64,000 nucleotides of DNA from Bythopirellula sp. (GTDB taxonomy: Bacteria > Planctomycetota > Planctomycetia > Pirellulales > Lacipirellulaceae), in NCBI GenBank assembly GCA_028285205.1, contig JANQQA010000343.1, positions 1 to 64,000 on the forward strand, given 5' to 3'. The position numbers were made by a program, and so were the translations under genes. Under the pieces are notes generated by a model. The model was not told the DNA's origin and ran no database searches. It worked only from the letters and a program-made list of their open reading frames with translations. Below, one piece after another: positions 4,026 through 53,227 of this stretch. How positions within the stretch are numbered: position 1 is the stretch's first letter; the number at the start of each line of letters is the position of its first letter.

Positions 4026-4493
4026 TTACTTGGGAGCGCCCTTCGTGTCTGAGCCTGGCTTGGGTGCACCATCAGGCCAGCGTTCTTCGGGCTTTTTCTT
4101 ACAATCTTCCAACGTGCCCCCAGGCAGTTTGCCAGCCTTGATGAGTTCGCCGAAAGTTGGGCTTTCTTTGTCTTTAGGGTCGGAGTACATCTTGGAGACC
4201 TTCTCTAAAGCCTCAACAATCTTCTTCGGATTCTTAGCGTCCTTCTTTTTATCCAACAGCACGGAAAGATGCATGCCGTAGAGGTTTCGATCTTTCTTTT
4301 TCTTGCCTTGATGACAGGTAAAGCACTTCGCCTCGAGCACCTTTTTGGTGAGCTCGGTTTGCACGTCTGCCGACTTGTCGACTTTGTAGAGCTTCATAAA
4401 CTCGTCGCTGAACTGCTTAATCGCCAAGGCAGGCTGCGACAGACCAGCGAATGCGAACGCACTAACAAACATCGTCAAAACTAGTTTCTGCAT
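4026..4493 (-). CDS. Exported mono-haem c-type cytochrome-like protein
   Basis: 155 residues with a signal peptide (MQKLVLTMFVSAFAFAGLSQ, cleavage after PALA). There is one CxxCH haem-attachment motif, CFTCHQG, near residue 57, followed by a Lys-rich stretch (GKKKKDRN). A Met-rich segment around MYSDP could supply the sixth ligand; this is inference. The C-terminus is Pro/Lys/Gly rich. A GAGGAG Shine-Dalgarno lies about 8 bases before the ATG. c-type haem proteins act outside the cytoplasmic membrane as electron carriers. It converges with the membrane protein at 2925-3998. Confidence 0.75.
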   Translation of the reverse strand: MQKLVLTMFVSAFAFAGLSQPALAIKQFSDEFMKLYKVDKSADVQTELTKKVLEAKCFTCHQGKKKKDRNLYGMHLSVLLDKKKDAKNPKKIVEALEKVSKMYSDPKDKESPTFGELIKAGKLPGGTLEDCKKKPEERWPDGAPKPGSDTKGAPK

Positions 4494-4652
4494 CTATCGA
4501 ACTCCTCACTTGCTCTCTAGCTGGGAAAACACCGACCTCAGAAAGCGGGCAAAAGCCTCAACCTAGGCTGAGTTACCCCCTGAGATGGCTCTTCAGTAGA
4601 ACTGCCGTTTTTTGGCATGTCAAGCAATGTATAGGACGGTCACGCGAAGAAA

Positions 4653-8434: not shown

Positions 8435-9775
8435 CTAACGACGGATTTCTTCTCCTGGTGGGTACTGCTCGACGAGTACACTCGTCCCATTGTTATCTTT
8501 CTTGAGCGTGAACGCATCGTAGAGTTTGCCGGTAGCGAGTCTAGCTTCATAGCGCACCTGATGCGGCTCGACATGGATGACCTGAAACAACTGGGCACCT
8601 GAAGCATTGCGGCTGACATCCCAGGCTTCCTGCACCGGATACATCTTCGGTCCGCTGACGCTAACGACGTAGACGGTGTTGCTGTTGGCGCGACGCAGGC
8701 CTTCGGGCACATTCTTTGGTCCGCCAAGTCCAGAGCGGGCGTACGCGTGGTCATGTCCCTGCAACACTAGGTCGACGTGATTGTCTTCTAGGATCTCTCG
8801 CCAAGCGGCTCGCAAGACGGGATTGTCGCGGCCCCGCGCTGCGGAGAAGATTGGGTGGTGGAACGTCACGAATGTCCACCGTGGGCGTTTGGGATCTTGC
8901 AACACGGATTCCAACCATGCTTTCTGCTGCTCGATTCTCTCGTTGGAATTGAGCGAAATGATCCGCGCGTCCTGATAGTCGATCCAATAGGCCGTCTCTT
9001 CCAGGCCGGGTGGACCGTTTTCGGGGAAAGCAAATTGCGGACGCCAGTGGCGTGAGAGCCCGTCGATGTATTCGTGATTCCCTGGACAAGCAACCACAGG
9101 AATCATCCCATTTAGCCATCCCGCGGCCCCAAACCACTCGCCCCAATCCGCGTCGCGATTGCCATTGTTGACCAGGTCGCCCGCATGGAGCATGAATGCC
9201 GCACGAGGAGCATGCTGATTTGCCTCGCGTACGACTCGCGACCACCACGAACGCACATCGTTTTGGGCGTCACCGAAGTAAACAAATGTGAACGGCGTGC
9301 TCGACGTGCTTGCCGTGCGGAATTGAAACCATTCACTGAAGTGCTCGCCATCGCCAACGCGATAAGCATACATCGTGTCCGGCTGGAGCCCGCTTATCTG
9401 ACCGGAGTGCAAGAGGCACTTGCCCAAGTCCGACGAAAACTCGTTAGAAGTCCCTGTAGCCTGTTCGCGGCCGGCAACCTCGGCCCGCAAATCCCCCAGC
9501 AGTTCACTGGCGAGGACGTATTCCACAACCGGCTTGCCGACGCTCAGGTCGGTACGCCAGGTGACATCGATCGAACTGGTGGGATCGCCGCTCCAAGTCA
9601 GAACCACTCGATCAGGCAGCGGAGTGGGGCGATGCTGCTCGACCTCCGTGAATGCTTGCGTTTCTGCAACTGCCTCGTGAGCAACTGCTACAACGTGTGT
9701 AACCAATCCATAGCAAGCCCCAACCGCCACAAATGCTGCCAGTCGAATCGTCTTCGCCAAGATCTTTATTTCCAT
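8435..9775 (-). CDS. Exported purple acid phosphatase-like metallophosphoesterase
   Basis: 446 residues with an N-terminal hydrophobic export segment (LAAFVAVGACYGLVTHVVAV). A fibronectin-type/PAP N-terminal domain follows (PDRVVLTWSGDPTSSIDVTW, then SGLQPDTMYAYRVGDG). The metallophosphoesterase domain has ordered metal motifs: FGDAQ, HAGDLVNNG, CPGNHEY, TFHHP and GHDHAYAR. Their spacing fits the dinuclear metal centre of purple acid phosphatases, which hydrolyse phosphomonoesters outside the cytoplasm. Export and fold are well supported; the substrate is unknown. The gene is monocistronic in appearance, with gaps of about 250 bases on each side. Confidence 0.9.
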   Translation of the reverse strand: MEIKILAKTIRLAAFVAVGACYGLVTHVVAVAHEAVAETQAFTEVEQHRPTPLPDRVVLTWSGDPTSSIDVTWRTDLSVGKPVVEYVLASELLGDLRAEVAGREQATGTSNEFSSDLGKCLLHSGQISGLQPDTMYAYRVGDGEHFSEWFQFRTASTSSTPFTFVYFGDAQNDVRSWWSRVVREANQHAPRAAFMLHAGDLVNNGNRDADWGEWFGAAGWLNGMIPVVACPGNHEYIDGLSRHWRPQFAFPENGPPGLEETAYWIDYQDARIISLNSNERIEQQKAWLESVLQDPKRPRWTFVTFHHPIFSAARGRDNPVLRAAWREILEDNHVDLVLQGHDHAYARSGLGGPKNVPEGLRRANSNTVYVVSVSGPKMYPVQEAWDVSRNASGAQLFQVIHVEPHQVRYEARLATGKLYDAFTLKKDNNGTSVLVEQYPPGEEIRR

Positions 9776-47113: not shown

Positions 47114-48706
47114 GTGAATTCCTTACCAGCAGACAATCCGCCGCTGTTTTCAGAGCCCCCTCAGGATTTGCCACGGATCGCGGCTGATGCTGGAGACGCC
47201 GCTGCCGACCCCGAATCATCCGATTCGGCTTCATCGGAGTCTCAGTTGCCGCGACGTAGCTCGCTCAGCGAGCCCATCTCACTGCTCGCCAGCGCGGCAA
47301 TCCATGTCCTTGTGTTGCTGGTACTCTCGTTGTGGCTGTTTCCGCTCCCAGGCAAGAGGCTCGATTTGGGGCTGGCTGGTGCGTTCAGTGAAGAATCCGA
47401 ATTGTTGGAGCTGGACGTCAACGAATTAGATTCGTCTGGCGGCGAGTTGACGATGGACCAGGAGATCGCCATCGACTTGCCCACGACAGACAATCTCGCT
47501 GACACCAATGTTGTCACGCCTTCGGAACTTACATTGCCCCAGACAACCGCGCCGTCGAACGTGACGGCTAGCCTTACCGATGCGATCAGCCAACCGCTTG
47601 CTTCGCGCGGCGGTGGCCTGGACGGTCGAAAGGCCCAAAACCGTCGCAGCCTGGCGCTGTCGGGTGGCGGCACGGAAGCCAGCGAGGCCGCCGTCGAACG
47701 GGGACTCGCTTGGTTGGCTGCCCATCAGTTCGATGACGGCGGCTGGCGATTCGATCTGACGACCTGCCCACAGTGCGCCGGTGCCTGCCGAAACTCGGGC
47801 TTTCGCAGCTCAACCACCGATGCGACCGGGTTGGCATTGCTATGCTTTTTGGGAGCCGGGTACACGCACGAAGAAGGCCCCTATCAGAACGAAGTCTTGA
47901 AGGGTCTTTACTATCTGCAGGAAAAGATGCTGCTGAGCTCGATGGGCGGTGATCTTCGCGATCGGTCGGTCGTATCTGAATTGCAGGGCAACGTGCTGTT
48001 GATGCAGAAAAACGGCGACATGTATTCGCACGCCATCGCTACCCTCGCCCTCTGCGAGGCCTACGCGATGACCCGCGATAAGACGCTGGCAGACGCGGCT
48101 CAGAAGGCTACCGATTTTATCGTCAACGCCCAGCACGAGGCTGGTGGGTGGCGGTACGAGCCGGGCATGCCTGGCGATTTGTCGGTGACCGGTTGGCAAC
48201 TGACCGCACTGAAGAGCGCTGTGCACGGTCGGCTGCAAGTACCACGCGAAGTGTGGTACCGAGCGATCGAGTTTCTCAACAGTGTGCAAGCATCCCGAGG
48301 CTCGCAGTACCGCTACAAAGCCAACGAGAATCCGCAACGAGTGATGTCCGTGGTCGGCCTGTTTTCACGAATGCTATTGGGCTGGCCACAAGACCATCGC
48401 CCGCTACGCAAAGGTGTGGCGCTGGTCGCCGACCAAGATCCGCGCGAGAATCACATGTACTTCAACTACTATGCCAGCCAAGTGTTGCGCCACCACGGCG
48501 GTAGTGGATGGGATCGCTGGAACCCGCGAATGCGGGATTACTTGGTTGATATGCAGAACACCCAGGGCCACGAAACTGGCAGCTGGTACTTCGACGAAGA
48601 TTGGAGCAACCCCGGCGGTCGGCTCTACACAACGACGCTTTCGATCTTGACGCTCGAAGTGTACTACCGCTACATGCCCATGTATCAAGAAGAATTTCTC
48701 AAATGA
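47114..48706 (+). CDS. Membrane-anchored prenyltransferase/squalene-cyclase-fold protein
   Basis: 530 residues from a GTG start. A Ser/Pro-rich N-terminus and one helix (PISLLASAAIHVLVLLVLSL) are followed by an acidic linker. From about residue 195 a series of alpha/alpha barrel repeats recalls the squalene-hopene cyclase/prenyltransferase fold (VERGLAWLAAHQFDDGGWRF, TDFIVNAQHEAGGWRYEPGM, IEFLNSVQASRGSQYRYKAN, RDYLVDMQNTQGHETGSWYF). There is a CPQCAGAC cysteine cluster. It lacks the DXDD motif, so a cyclase activity is unlikely; the repeats may bind a lipid or protein. The 3' end faces the riboswitch transcript. Confidence 0.8.
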   Translation: MNSLPADNPPLFSEPPQDLPRIAADAGDAAADPESSDSASSESQLPRRSSLSEPISLLASAAIHVLVLLVLSLWLFPLPGKRLDLGLAGAFSEESELLELDVNELDSSGGELTMDQEIAIDLPTTDNLADTNVVTPSELTLPQTTAPSNVTASLTDAISQPLASRGGGLDGRKAQNRRSLALSGGGTEASEAAVERGLAWLAAHQFDDGGWRFDLTTCPQCAGACRNSGFRSSTTDATGLALLCFLGAGYTHEEGPYQNEVLKGLYYLQEKMLLSSMGGDLRDRSVVSELQGNVLLMQKNGDMYSHAIATLALCEAYAMTRDKTLADAAQKATDFIVNAQHEAGGWRYEPGMPGDLSVTGWQLTALKSAVHGRLQVPREVWYRAIEFLNSVQASRGSQYRYKANENPQRVMSVVGLFSRMLLGWPQDHRPLRKGVALVADQDPRENHMYFNYYASQVLRHHGGSGWDRWNPRMRDYLVDMQNTQGHETGSWYFDEDWSNPGGRLYTTTLSILTLEVYYRYMPMYQEEFLK

Positions 48707-48799
48707 CGCGGCACTTGCCGCACATCTGTCGGGTAGCCTAATCCATCACACGGGGTCACGCGTCGCCAGCGGGAATCGTCATTCTCCATTGACAAAATT

Positions 48800-48862
48800 G
48801 GGGATGAGCCCGGCATCGACGTATTGGGGGCACCTACAACGCCTCAGAACGGACTCATCCCC
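48800..48862 (-). terminator. Terminator-like hairpin downstream of riboswitch
   Basis: 13-bp stem (one G-T pair): GGGGATGAGTCCG pairs with CGGGCTCATCCCC across a 37-base loop, followed in minus-strand direction by AATTTTG. It starts 8 bases after the stop of a 32-codon frame. A weak U-run makes termination uncertain, but the stem is strong. Confidence 0.5.
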
Positions 48863-48869
48863 GTCTCTA

Positions 48870-48968
48870 TCATCCCCTTCGACGATAATTAGACGAGACA
48901 GGACGTCTAGATCTTTCTTGATAAAGTCTCTCCGGCAGAGGTAGACCGTCACTTGTAGAGATGCTCAT
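48870..48968 (-). CDS. Candidate 32-residue peptide downstream of c-di-GMP riboswitch
   Basis: ATG at 48968, 38 bases after the end of the riboswitch aptamer, with AAGGCGGAAAG as possible ribosome-binding region. The peptide starts MSISTSDGLPLPERLYQ and ends basic (RRPVSSNYRRRG). There is no family match and no signal peptide. A frame of similar length (57 codons, GTG at 48952 to TGA at 48779) overlaps in another phase. Either may be fortuitous. The position between aptamer and hairpin is the main argument. Confidence 0.25.
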   Translation of the reverse strand: MSISTSDGLPLPERLYQERSRRPVSSNYRRRG

Positions 48969-49005
48969 GAGCCGTCTTTCCGCCTTCAGATTGCCGATTA
49001 GTTCA

Positions 49006-49083
49006 ATCTCGGCAGCCTGGCGATCTGCGGGAGACCCATGGCTTTGCGCCCCGACCTCGCGGTCGGTTTGCCTTGAGCGAGAT
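49006..49083 (-). ncRNA. c-di-GMP-I (GEMM-I) riboswitch aptamer
   Basis: Minus strand. P1 pairs ATCTCG (49078-49083) with CGAGAT (49006-49011). Inside lies CTCAAGGCAAACC, then the GNRA-capped helix CCGACC-GCGA-GGTCGG, then GGCGCAAAGCC, the arm ATGGGTCTCC...GATC, and GCCAGGCTGCCGAG. These are the hallmark elements of the GEMM-I fold. The residues corresponding to G20, A47 and C92 of the Vibrio Vc2 riboswitch appear conserved, which predicts c-di-GMP as ligand rather than cGAMP. It is in the 554-base gap after the enoyl-CoA hydratase gene. No conventional gene lies downstream in its direction. Confidence 0.9.
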
Positions 49084-49260
49084 GCTCGTTTGGATAGGGG
49101 CAGCCTGACGTTCTCGCTGACGCGTTGGGAACGGAAAACTAGGCCGCTAATAAACAGGTAGGTCACGAAATGGGGCAGGTCAAACGCAAAGGCTGGAATA
49201 AAATGCGATTAAGCAGTTTAACTACCGGACGCACCAGTTCGACCCCTCGCCTGGGGGTTC

Positions 49261-50052
49261 CTAGCGCCATTGTGGTGCGCGTTGTTCCGCATAAGCCGCA
49301 AGTCCTTCCTGTGCGGCTTCCGTCGTGAAGGCAGTGGCACGCATCACTGCTCCCGACGTGAGTTGCGTTTCCAGCTGTTCGCCCACGGTTTCGTTGAGCA
49401 ATCGCTTGCTGAGTTGGATCGCCTCGGGAGCACCTGCGGCACACTCGCGTGCAAGTTCCATCGCCCGCGCCCAAACTTTGTCGTGCGGGATCAGCTCGTG
49501 GAACAGTCCGATCTGATGCGATTCTTTCGCGTCAATTGTGGTTGAAGACAGGAGCAATCGCGCCGCCTGTCCACCACCGACTCGGAAACTCAACAGCGGG
49601 GCAGACACTCCCGCAACCAAGCCGTAACGGGGATCAGGCAAACCAAAACTCGCATTCTCAGCCGCGACGACCAGGTCACTTGCCAGCACCAGCCCCGCCC
49701 CTTCCGACAATGCCGCGCCGTTGACCGAAGCAATGATCGGCTTGGTAATCTCGAGCATTCTCAGCACTAAGTCGCGCCAAGCCGCCGCGTCCTCACCCCA
49801 TTGCTGCTGCACAGCGAGTTCGTCTTCGTCGGATTGCATCTCGTGCCAGTCGAGCCCTTCCGAGAAAGTGTCAGCCGCCCCCGTCACGATGATCGCGCGG
49901 ACCTTTTTCTCCAGGTACAAATCGTCGAGTGCTTCGCCGAGTTGCTGTACCATCAACCGCGTCATGCGATTTCCGTGATCAGGACGATTGATGATGATCG
50001 TACCGGCGCAGTCGGTCACTTTCACCTCAATGAGCTCACTCTGCATGTACAT
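49261..50052 (-). CDS. Enoyl-CoA hydratase/isomerase family protein
   Basis: 263 residues. Crotonase-fold signatures are IIINRPDHGNRMTRLMVQQL, AIIVTGAADTFSEGLDWHEM, the oxyanion-hole region IASVNGAALSEGAGLVLASD and ASFGLPDPRYGLVAGVSAPL, with REIVASGAP-like C-terminal helices. The Glu positions of classic hydratases cannot be placed with certainty. Members hydrate or isomerise enoyl-CoA thioesters. It follows the AtuA-like gene by six bases, so the two are probably co-transcribed and may share a substrate such as an isoprenoid acyl-CoA (inference). Confidence 0.88.
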   Translation of the reverse strand: MYMQSELIEVKVTDCAGTIIINRPDHGNRMTRLMVQQLGEALDDLYLEKKVRAIIVTGAADTFSEGLDWHEMQSDEDELAVQQQWGEDAAAWRDLVLRMLEITKPIIASVNGAALSEGAGLVLASDLVVAAENASFGLPDPRYGLVAGVSAPLLSFRVGGGQAARLLLSSTTIDAKESHQIGLFHELIPHDKVWARAMELARECAAGAPEAIQLSKRLLNETVGEQLETQLTSGAVMRATAFTTEAAQEGLAAYAEQRAPQWR

Positions 50053-50058
50053 GAGACG

Positions 50059-51318
50059 TTATCTCCACTCATTCGCAGGACGCGTATCGACCGAAACCGC
50101 AATCGTATCGCGCGGGACCTCGCACGTGAACCGAGCAATTTCGCACTGCAACTCCGGCCACGCGCCGATCTCTGCAGTGCGTTCATCTTGCTGAAACGCG
50201 AGGTGGTTTCTGGCCGCAGCAACGAACTGTTCGCAGCGCTGCTTGTCTTCGCTGCGATAGCGCACTCTCCAGTGACGAGTCATCGAAGCGCGACCGATCG
50301 ATTCGCTTTCGACTTCCGGCATCCGTTTGAGCACCTCAACATCAAGTGAAGAACCTTCTCCGGTGCCAAACTCAGCTTGCAGCTGCGTGACGACGTCGGT
50401 AGCTCGATTCGCACCTGCTGATTCCTCCAGTGCGACACAGAAGTCGGCAACATAGTTGGCCAGGTATTCGACCTGCAGCAACCAACATGCTGAAGCCGGT
50501 TCCCCCTGAATCTGCCGCCAGTCGAAATCTCCATTCCGCGTTGCATCATGGTGCTGGCCTGAGACGCGATAGCGGATATCGGCATGCGCCACCACGGATT
50601 CTCGCTCCGCCAGTGCCTCGAGCGACGTTCGATCGCTCGTACGTCTCCCCTCCTCGCGCTGAAAAGGCGAAATCCGCACGCCATGGTCGGGCTGGAAATC
50701 AACGACGTCTCCCGCGCAACTCGACGCAAACGCTAACTGTGCCAACGGATCCGCATCGTTCCACTCGAGCATCGTTGCACTAATCGCTGCGGCGAGCAGT
50801 GGAGCCGCCTGGTCGTAGCAACCCGTCACGATAAATCTCGAACCTTCGTCTAGCGCCGTCTGGATCGGCCCGCCGCCTAGTTCGACGTGAGCCGATAGCA
50901 AGGGCCGCGTCAGTTCTTGCAGTCTTTGCCCACTGCTGACGTCTCGCAGGGGCACGTCTGCGGCGAACAACTCCTCGAGGCAGTCCAGCTGATTGTCGCC
51001 ACGAATCGCCGTGATGGGCAGTTCCGCGTTACCGTGTTCGCACAGGTAGTTGGCCACGGCTTCGACACATCCCGTGGTGTCGCCACCTCCGGCGTTGGTG
51101 ACTAGCCTCAGCTGGGGATCGAGGTACAGCGGCTTGCGTAGCTGCTGAAGCTGCTTCAGCAATCCTGCCGCGTAGCCCGCTCTCGAATGGTCGCCCTGAG
51201 CGATTACCGCAGGCCAGCGGTAGTCCAGCTGCAACACATCAAGCTCTGCGTGCTCCGCCAACCTATCGAGGGTCGGGTTGTAACAGTCGTAGGCGGAGAC
51301 AACACGGGCGAATCGCAT
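50059..51318 (-). CDS. AtuA-like protein (DUF1446 family)
   Basis: 419 residues from the ATG at 51318; a start at 51390 adds 24. LDVLQLDYRWPAVIAQ, LRLVTNAGGGDTTGCVEAVA, LPITAIRGDN, SAHVELGGGPIQTALDEGSR and FIVTGCYDQAAPLLAAA follow the AtuA pattern (DYL, TNAGG, GD, SAYxGA, GRVADA regions). AtuA is needed for acyclic terpene (citronellol/geraniol) degradation in Pseudomonas, but its biochemical step is not established to my knowledge. Key Gly/Asp positions fit, though some signatures are divergent (TGCYDQ instead of TGRVAD). The next gene is an enoyl-CoA hydratase six bases downstream. Confidence 0.75.
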   Translation of the reverse strand: MRFARVVSAYDCYNPTLDRLAEHAELDVLQLDYRWPAVIAQGDHSRAGYAAGLLKQLQQLRKPLYLDPQLRLVTNAGGGDTTGCVEAVANYLCEHGNAELPITAIRGDNQLDCLEELFAADVPLRDVSSGQRLQELTRPLLSAHVELGGGPIQTALDEGSRFIVTGCYDQAAPLLAAAISATMLEWNDADPLAQLAFASSCAGDVVDFQPDHGVRISPFQREEGRRTSDRTSLEALAERESVVAHADIRYRVSGQHHDATRNGDFDWRQIQGEPASACWLLQVEYLANYVADFCVALEESAGANRATDVVTQLQAEFGTGEGSSLDVEVLKRMPEVESESIGRASMTRHWRVRYRSEDKQRCEQFVAAARNHLAFQQDERTAEIGAWPELQCEIARFTCEVPRDTIAVSVDTRPANEWR

Positions 51319-51664
51319 GACTGGGCTAATGCTGCGTTGGTTGGTGGATGGGATTGTGAGGCTTACAAGTGGTTTCGCATCAACTGGCAAGCGTCACCAT
51401 CGTGGCCTTTTCTGAACCTGCTGAGTGTTCGGTGTTGTTTTTATTCCTCATCTGTCACTTCCGTTGCCCATGTGCCGCAATCTGGGAATCTTCGTAAACC
51501 CATGTGAACATGAAACTTACCGCTTGCAAAGACCCTCCGGCGAGCTTCCCGGCATAACCTCTGCAATGAACTCACGCCGAGCGAAGCCACCCCCCAATCT
51601 CGATCCACGTGCTTTGGGCCTTGTGGATTTCTAGGAGTCGTCGAAGCACTCGGAGGAAACAGCC

Positions 51665-53227
51665 ATGTCACGTCGAATCAGCAAAAAGACCCCCATCAAC
51701 GGAAAAACGGAGACCAATGGCAAGTCCACCGATAGCAAGGCACCAGCGCGACCACTGAATCGACTGGCATCGTCTGACGACGTGGCGGATGACGCGGTCG
51801 AGGAATCCGATTCCAGCGAACACGAATCCGCAGCTATCGACGATCCGGTACGCATGTACCTTATGCAGATGGGCGAGATTCCGATGCTGTCTCGGGATAT
51901 GGAGGTCACCTCCGCCAAACGCATCGAAGCCACGCGAACGCGGTTTCGTCGCACGATGCTGTGCAACGATTTCGTGTTGCACGGAGCGGTTGAGCTGCTG
52001 CAAAAGGTCGTCGACGGAAATCTGCGTCTCGATCGCACGATCGAAATCTCGGTGACCAACACAGCCGAGAAGAAGCGTGCCCTCAAGCGGATTACGCCCA
52101 ACCTGGTAACCATTCGCCACCTGCTCGGGCAAAACCAGACTGACTTTCGTATTGCCGTCAGTTTGCAGGCGACCCAGGCACTGAAGAAACAAGCGTGGCG
52201 CAGAATGATCAGCCGCCGCAACAAGGCTGTGCGTCTGGTGGAGGAATTGAATCTCCGTCTGCAGCGTTTGCTGCCACTGATGGAGCAACTCCACGAAATC
52301 TCCGCACGAATGACGACGGTAAAAGAACAACTGGCCAAACCCGAGCAGCTGTTGCACTCGGGTTTGCAGCACGAGTTCACCGAAGAGCTCCGCTACCTGA
52401 TGCGAATCACCCTGGAAACGCCGCTGACACTGGCTCGATTGACGGAGCGCACCAACCAACGCAAACGGAAGTACGACCTAGCCAAGCGTGATCTCTCGGC
52501 CGCGAACCTTCGACTGGTCGTATCGATCGCTAAGCGTTACCGCAATCGTGGCATGAGCTTCTTGGACCTCATCCAGGAAGGCAACACAGGGCTGATGCGT
52601 GCGGTCGACAAATTCGAGCACGCTCGTGGTTACAAGTTCTCGACCTATGCGACCTGGTGGATTCGTCAGGCGATTACCCGGGCGATTGCCGATCAGAGCC
52701 GCACCATTCGTTTGCCCGTGCACATGATTGACACGATGAGCAAGATTCGCTCCGTAACGGCAGACTTCGTGCAGGAATTCGGTCGCGAGCCAAACCCCGA
52801 AGAAATCGCCGAACGAGCCGGGTTGTCGGTCGAAGATGCCAAGTGCGTCTACAAGATGACTCGTCAGCCGCTGTCGCTCGATCAGCCGGTTGGGGATCAC
52901 GAAGACAACTACTTCGGTGAGTTCCTCGAAGAACAAAGCGAAGACGATCCGCTTTACGATGCCAACCTGGAAGCTCTCAAGAAACGATTGGAAGAAGTGA
53001 TGACCGATCTCTCCTATCGCGAACGGGAAATCCTCCGCCTGCGGTACGGACTCGCCGACGGCTACACCTACACGCTCGAGGAAGTCGGCAAGATCTTCTC
53101 GGTCACACGAGAACGCGTTCGCCAGATCGAATCGAAGGCAGTGCGAAAACTCCAATCGCCCTACCGTTCGCGCTCGCTGACCGGTTTTCTCGACGGTGCC
53201 GAGCCGGTTCAACTCGATACGAACTAA
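51665..53227 (+). CDS. rpoD: Primary RNA polymerase sigma factor (sigma-70)
   Basis: 520 residues. The N-terminus is a Lys/Asp-rich stretch. Region 1.2: [20 protein letters not shown]. Region 2 carries [40 protein letters not shown] and the promoter -10 motif [19 protein letters not shown]. Region 3 includes [16 protein letters not shown]. Region 4 ends [20 protein letters not shown], binding -35 DNA. A GGAGG Shine-Dalgarno precedes the ATG. A strong terminator follows. The roughly 190-residue non-conserved stretch between regions 1.2 and 2 is Lys/Arg-rich and helical. Confidence 0.96.

Follow-up and report, generated by a model that had tools for sequence, protein, structure and literature searches.

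What does a riboswitch control when no ordinary gene follows it? The question is raised by an aptamer on the minus strand of the window, as we call the whole stretch of 64,000 nucleotides analyzed here, which comes from a Bythopirellula sp. genome in 373 contigs. A preliminary description had placed this aptamer upstream of the 3′ end of a convergent gene, and proposed that its transcript encodes a tiny peptide or acts as an RNA, possibly antisense to the 3′ untranslated region of that neighbor. We propose, with a probability of roughly 0.55, that the locus is an autonomous small-RNA gene gated by the aptamer, with a promoter of its own, a short open reading frame (ORF) and a hairpin whose C-rich loop could pair in trans with other RNAs. 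The features concerned are given below in their order on the minus strand. We refer to the promoter-like element and the hairpin, with or without the aptamer, as the unit.

49151 to 49184, minus strand: predicted promoter, TTTGACC-N-CGTGACCTACCTGTTTATTAG (similar motif at all 23 unit loci)
49007 to 49081, minus strand: c-di-GMP-I-GGC riboswitch aptamer, RF03167 (68.3 bits, E 5e-14)
48870 to 48968, minus strand: short ORF of 32 amino acids, MSIST...RRRG (position and comparison with relatives)
48800 to 48862, minus strand: terminator-like 3′ hairpin with a 13-bp outer stem, GGUGCCCCCA (covariation on 19 sequences)
48825 to 48834, minus strand: C-rich apical loop of this hairpin, GGTGCCCCCA, candidate pairing site (comparison of loci)
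48794 to 48799, minus strand: short T run AATTTT, 3′ of the hairpin (sequence)

An aptamer of the GGC class outside the pilin genes

The aptamer belongs to a known family, the GGC variant of GEMM-I. A covariance-model scan (cmscan) matched the whole RF03167 model, positions 1 to 80 of 80, at 49007-49081 on the minus strand with 68.3 bits, above the gathering score of 59. This bears out the GEMM-I-type aptamer of the preliminary description, whose borders (49006-49083) agree with ours to within 2 bases. It was the single riboswitch above the gathering score in the entire window, and RF03167 was the sole family listed at E ≤ 5 in a search restricted to 48700-49260; weaker matches of the same clan were removed unnamed, one in the former search and two in the latter. 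RF03167 stands in the same clan as c-di-GMP-I (GEMM-I, RF01051), and the window aptamer has the sequence and structure of RF03167. From the family name and this resemblance, we infer that the ligand is c-di-GMP. The window's genome has six RF03167 matches, three of them above threshold. On its contig C263, two GGC aptamers lie 4 kb apart (4445-4527 and 8474-8555), the first with a protein downstream that looks secreted by eye.

Matches to RF03167 occur in 42 of the 59 genomes that we searched, the window's own included; in a sample of 396 genomes from the order, 169 have one. We classified 60 of 63 matches by a motif search, leaving out the weak ones of G031 and G046 and the second of G052. 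Most of them (39 of the 60) precede an ORF with a Flp-type pilin motif, whereas a short ORF and a C-rich hairpin follow the copy in the window, one of the other 21. Eleven of these 21 loci are in the window's class; for the remaining ten, inspection by eye showed surface-type proteins, short ORFs or the end of the contig downstream of the aptamer. Two non-pilin loci near contig ends have 763 (L069) and 335 (L078) bases of downstream sequence. In L005, L033 and L068, the ORF right after a GGC-class aptamer has an LE(K/P)R.ML motif close to its N terminus; by eye, these ORFs probably encode surface proteins.

A short ORF downstream of the aptamer

The earlier view that the riboswitch has no conventional downstream gene holds: between the aptamer and position 48706, the 3′ coding end of the convergent gene, the minus strand has no ORF of ordinary size. 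The 32-amino-acid ORF at 48968-48870 could not be seen in the first reading. Relatives carry an ORF of 52 to 67 amino acids at the same spot in 10 of 14 aptamer-bearing loci, which lends substance to the "tiny peptide" half of the original proposal. The ORF of G012, a genome of the same genus, has 24 amino acids, and none was seen at the unit loci of G017 and G029. In 12 of the 14 loci, an ATG lies 80 to 127 bases past the CGCAAAG of the aptamer, with start codons picked by eye. The beginning MSIST is common to the window and G012, with third-position differences in the S, S and T codons.

Do these ORFs encode proteins? We compared seven pairs by protein-guided alignment; the pairs overlap, three of them sharing genus g6, and so are not independent. 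Differences are fewest, or tied for fewest, at codon position 2 in all seven and most numerous at position 3 in six; between G028 and G015, for example, the three positions show 10, 6 and 15 differences. This bias suggests that the aptamer-bearing relatives probably make a small protein, and the ORF of the window is probably a shortened remnant of it. Several of the peptides repeat a loose motif, (Y/F)A...D. Twelve such peptides exist, and none of the four scanned against Pfam had a match at E ≤ 0.1.

The locus could then be an ordinary riboswitch with an ordinary, if small, gene: the ORF would be this gene, the hairpin downstream its terminator, and the ORF of the window a copy in decay. The size and codon-position bias of the ORF in relatives and the spacing of the ATG speak for this possibility, as does the sequence GTCCGG in genus g13, which lies just before the start codon and is complementary to the 3′ strand of P1. 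On the other side, the scanned peptides resemble no Pfam family, and the hairpin with its C-rich loop persists where the ORF is missing (G017 and G029) or cut short (the window and G012). We also considered a strand competing with P1 as a general feature and rejected it, the combined test over 14 loci being borderline (Fisher chi-square 41.1, df 28). Such a strand is good only in genus g13 (13 to 44 of 500 shuffles equally good) and fair in the window (TGCCGA/TCGGCA, 49 of 500).

A hairpin with a covarying stem and a C-rich loop

Like the ORF, the hairpin at 48862-48800 could not be seen in the first reading; it would make the unit stop some 90 bases ahead of the convergent gene. A C-rich-loop hairpin follows the ORF region in all 14 aptamer-bearing loci, the copy of G030 lying further on, at +505. 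We aligned 19 hairpins with borders set by eye, 13 from aptamer-bearing loci and 6 from genus g2, leaving out that of G025. The outer stem of 13 pairs shows two-sided changes in 10 of them. Its cells are paired in 93.3% of cases, compared with a mean of 82.6 in shuffled alignments, and 40 cells are changed on both sides, compared with 16.7. None of 500 shuffles matched the observed stem on four measures and 9 of 500 did on a fifth, kinship being uncorrected in these tests. Sliding the stem partners destroys the pairing signal. The outer stem also appears in 12 of 13 folds of 114-base segments; another fold wins in G018, and the excised hairpins of G018 and G030 do form the stem. The hairpin is thus a conserved structured RNA part beyond the aptamer, and no Rfam family matches the window copy at E ≤ 5.

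The loop is conserved as well. The motif GTG[TCG]CCC lies inside the hairpin in 9 of the 14 aptamer-bearing loci, the other five having variant loops, and it occurs within 560 bases of the aptamer in only 2 of 39 pilin-class loci. Runs of T follow many of the hairpins but not all, and are weak in several (G035, G033 and G059). If the hairpin were just the terminator of a small gene, it would need no conserved loop, which is a further point against the ordinary riboswitch.

A promoter type probably shared with pilin riboswitches

Upstream of the aptamer, the unit has a promoter-like element of the form TTTG(A/C)C, about 16 bases, then (C)GTGACCTA. Such sites were found in 23 of 23 unit loci, chosen by a loose motif and compared afterwards, with nnnTTTGnnnnnCCCCnnAnCGTGACCTA as their consensus; L207 lacks a good upstream block. 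A generic sigma-70 scan gave no sites in the unit region of the window. A similar motif, TTTGAC...GAC(A/C)TA..TTT, lies upstream of 34 of 38 pilin-class aptamers (e.g., L004, L009 and L018) and in none of 3,800 shuffled sequences, the 39th locus having too little upstream sequence to be counted. At a 1% threshold, only 19 of the 38 pass a weight matrix built from the unit loci. We therefore suggest that the unit and the pilin riboswitches probably share a promoter type, and it is possible that they form a common regulon. With such a shared promoter type, one signal could drive the pilus genes and a trans-acting RNA together.

Distribution of the unit

The 14 aptamer-bearing loci share the layout of promoter-like element, aptamer and hairpin. 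Because this layout also served to define the class, the agreement among the loci carries no independent weight. The closest case is G012, where an enoyl-CoA hydratase gene, the aptamer, some 500 bases and a convergent toroid-fold gene follow one another as in the window. The two loci are 81% identical over 137 bases including the aptamer and share three more blocks: the promoter-like element, the surroundings of the ATG and the 3′ hairpin. Twelve further loci combine aptamer and hairpin, eleven in Lacipirellulaceae and one (L207) in a Pirellulales MAG; L207 was alone in having the hairpin among the 20 loci, of 110 named stretches, whose 400 downstream bases were viewed.

To follow the hairpin itself, we used a covariance model (R1) built from 19 of an initial 20 unit loci, all but G025. 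At E ≤ 0.1, 21 of the 43 family genomes have a match to it, one apiece. Eighteen of these genomes supplied sequences to the model, the window among them (48795-48862, minus strand, 55.1 bits), and three are independent: G019 (56.5 bits), G031 (54.7) and G023 (28.6). The three have the promoter motif 175 to 380 bases upstream of the hairpin, with no aptamer string in 1,500 bases and no RF03167 match there. Past the enoyl-CoA hydratase gene, six genomes of genus g2 (G034, G063, G065, G014, G027 and G064) likewise have the promoter motif and the hairpin, whose loop reads, for example, GGCGCCCTCC or GACGCCCTC. These hydratase loci lack the aptamer, and no RF03167 match was found at E ≤ 1 in nine loci. 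That genus g2 keeps promoter and hairpin without an aptamer suggests that the hairpin does not merely serve the riboswitch.

In total, 22 of the 43 Lacipirellulaceae genomes have the unit, 13 with the aptamer (G025 included, whose hairpin has a different stem and is missed by R1) and 9 without. Between promoter and hairpin, three of the nine aptamer-less units (G065, G064 and G023) have no ORF of at least 20 amino acids, and the other six have only putative ORFs, called mechanically. The persistence of promoter and hairpin in these nine genomes, three of them without such an ORF, speaks against a hairpin that only terminates a small gene, and we regard the ordinary riboswitch, on balance, as unlikely, though it deserves to be taken seriously. 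The "RNA" half of the original proposal gains from the same data: 14 loci with the C-rich-loop hairpin, a covarying stem, and a hairpin kept at the aptamer-less locus in nine genomes.

Across the order (396 sampled genomes, E ≤ 0.01), R1 gave 21 matches, 20 of them in the family. We rejected the one outside (L305, in G127) as false; by eye, it has no promoter and no C-rich loop motif, and it follows sequence that looks coding. Within the window's own genus, R1 matches just 2 of 14 genomes (several are incomplete), which suggests that the unit is dispensable. On a tree of the enoyl-CoA hydratase from 37 genomes (a single gene, midpoint-rooted), each of the two deep branches has aptamer-bearing units, aptamer-less ones occur at two places, and the aptamer label needs 5 changes. 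The simplest reading is that the aptamer is ancestral and was later lost in some lineages. In the genus-g2 loci (L227, L236, L238, L230, L233 and L235), the place of the aptamer downstream of the hydratase gene is taken by a long G+C-rich inverted repeat, GGCCGYCGGCGTGCG...CGCACGCCGGCGGCC. Most copies carry CCCC in the loop, and the repeat may serve as a different sensor or as an additional site for pairing.

A unit that changes neighbors

We located the neighbors of the unit in relatives by tblastn with eight proteins of the window. Upstream of the aptamer and on its strand, the window has the enoyl-CoA hydratase gene (49261-50052), which is also directly upstream of the unit in G012, G018, G017, G030, G029 and the six g2 genomes. 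Downstream, between the unit and rpmG, lies the convergent gene of about 1.6 kb. It weakly matches Pfam families of the squalene-hopene cyclase, pectic acid lyase and prenyltransferase toroid types. This toroid-fold gene is found downstream of the unit in G012 and G017 and, in pieces, in G029. In G035, G028, G015, G018 and G030, it was not found within 3 kb, and rpmG and then recJ, on the same strand, are the next genes. In G033, G059, G025 and G019, the unit adjoins neither the hydratase gene nor rpmG. Autonomy is the simplest reading of a unit that stays whole while its neighbors change.

This mobility of the context bears on two other explanations. One is that the riboswitch attenuates rpmG and recJ. 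It draws on the five genomes in which these are the next genes, and on G023, where the hairpin is just upstream of rpmG, albeit at a locus without an aptamer. However, the convergent gene intervenes in the window, rpmG is far away or on another contig in G033, G059, G025 and G019, and transcription would already stop at the hairpin, which a T run often follows. We find such attenuation very improbable. The other, part of the preliminary description, is that the transcript is antisense to the 3′ end of the toroid-fold gene. An antisense-acting riboswitch, as outlined in PMC9943018, gives rise to a transcript that enters the antisense strand of the neighbor it regulates. The convergent arrangement would allow this in the window, G012 and G017, perhaps with the fragments in G029, and by eye the 3′ end of the toroid-fold gene also lies downstream of the hairpin in genus g2. 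Yet five relatives have the unit and no toroid-fold gene within 3 kb, and in the window the predicted transcript would end at the hairpin, some 90 bases before it reached the coding region of the neighbor, though it may overlap the 3′ untranslated region. We give the antisense proposal hardly any credence. Beside the unit, the AtuA-family and hydratase genes (49261-51390, minus strand) lie next to a sigma-70-type gene (51665-53227, plus strand), a neighborhood also present in G012, G030, G017 and G029.

How the unit could work

In the small-RNA reading, which we prefer, a transcript of about 350 nucleotides would start at the predicted promoter, run through the c-di-GMP-I-GGC aptamer and the short ORF, and end at the terminator-like hairpin. 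Its conserved product would be the small RNA. The loop, approximately GNG(Y)CCC(C/U)C, resembles an anti-Shine-Dalgarno sequence; if exposed, it could pair with G-rich stretches such as the ribosome binding sites of other mRNAs. In the aptamer-bearing lineages, the second messenger would set the amount of active RNA and, where the ORF is intact, also that of the small protein. A broader proposal, which we hold tentatively and judge somewhat likelier to be wrong than right, is that this small-RNA gene of Lacipirellulaceae ancestrally had both a c-di-GMP riboswitch and a small-protein ORF, i.e., was a dual-function RNA gated by the second messenger. Some genera would later have lost the sensor or the ORF.

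The partner of the loop could also lie in the same transcript. The loop would then pair in cis with the GGGG(A/G)CGC strand of the aptamer, and hairpin and aptamer would form one switch. Loops and aptamers of the same locus do pair better than re-dealt ones (2 of 20,000 permutations were equal, with kinship uncorrected), and where ten loci have an A-U pair, the window and G012 have G-C. Nevertheless, there is no discrimination in the lineage of G017 and G029 (-6.15 versus -6.10 kcal/mol), the pairing is poor in G060, and nine genomes keep the hairpin and its C-rich loop without an aptamer. Such a switch appears improbable to us. For pairing in trans, we counted the 10-mer that complements the loop, hairpin included: the window's genome has 13 copies, compared with 7 of the backwards control, and G012 has 6, compared with 0. 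Among the 12 and 5 other exact-complement sites of the two genomes, we found no homologous gene pair that would point to a conserved target.

If the small-RNA reading is true, it would suggest that a second messenger can be wired into RNA-based regulation without an intermediate protein, and relatives with and without the sensor, with and without the ORF, form a natural series for testing the steps of this wiring. To our knowledge, few small RNAs have been studied in planctomycetes, and the unit is a concrete candidate for one. The only riboswitches that we know to control a non-coding RNA are a few that sense cobalamin (EutX, Rli55 and AspocR). The arrangement described here would be a new variant of riboswitch-controlled RNA, built on an aptamer family already known; titles and abstract openings in the literature revealed no riboswitch-headed RNA of this kind in planctomycetes.

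EutX and Rli55, of Enterococcus and Listeria, are small RNAs controlled by adenosylcobalamin riboswitches (PMC5821096, PMC8079631). Like the predicted unit, they are riboswitch-headed non-coding transcripts with their own promoter that act in trans, so that their orientation to the targets is irrelevant. They differ in the ligand class and the phylum, in that the window-type aptamer is absent from some genera, and in mechanism: they sequester the protein EutV by an ANTAR element (PMC5821096, PMC8079631), whereas we propose base pairing. AspocR of Listeria, an antisense RNA under a B12 riboswitch, is similar in that the riboswitch controls an RNA and not a downstream gene, but AspocR is antisense to pocR (PMC8079631), whereas the neighbor of the window unit is not a likely target. 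The loop has its closest counterpart, by description, in the LhrC small RNAs, which have UCCC motifs in loop A, in the linker and, in LhrC1-5, in the terminator loop, and bind ribosome binding sites with them (PMC8079631). Both would have a C-rich terminator loop, with binding to G-rich ribosome binding sites shown for LhrC and proposed here; no aptamer or short ORF is mentioned for LhrC (PMC8079631). Finally, aptamer, short ORF and terminator-like hairpin also follow one another, in a similar manner, in two planctomycete MAGs (the plus-strand copy of L136 and the minus-strand copy of L208), an arrangement that by eye has no sequence relation to that of the window.
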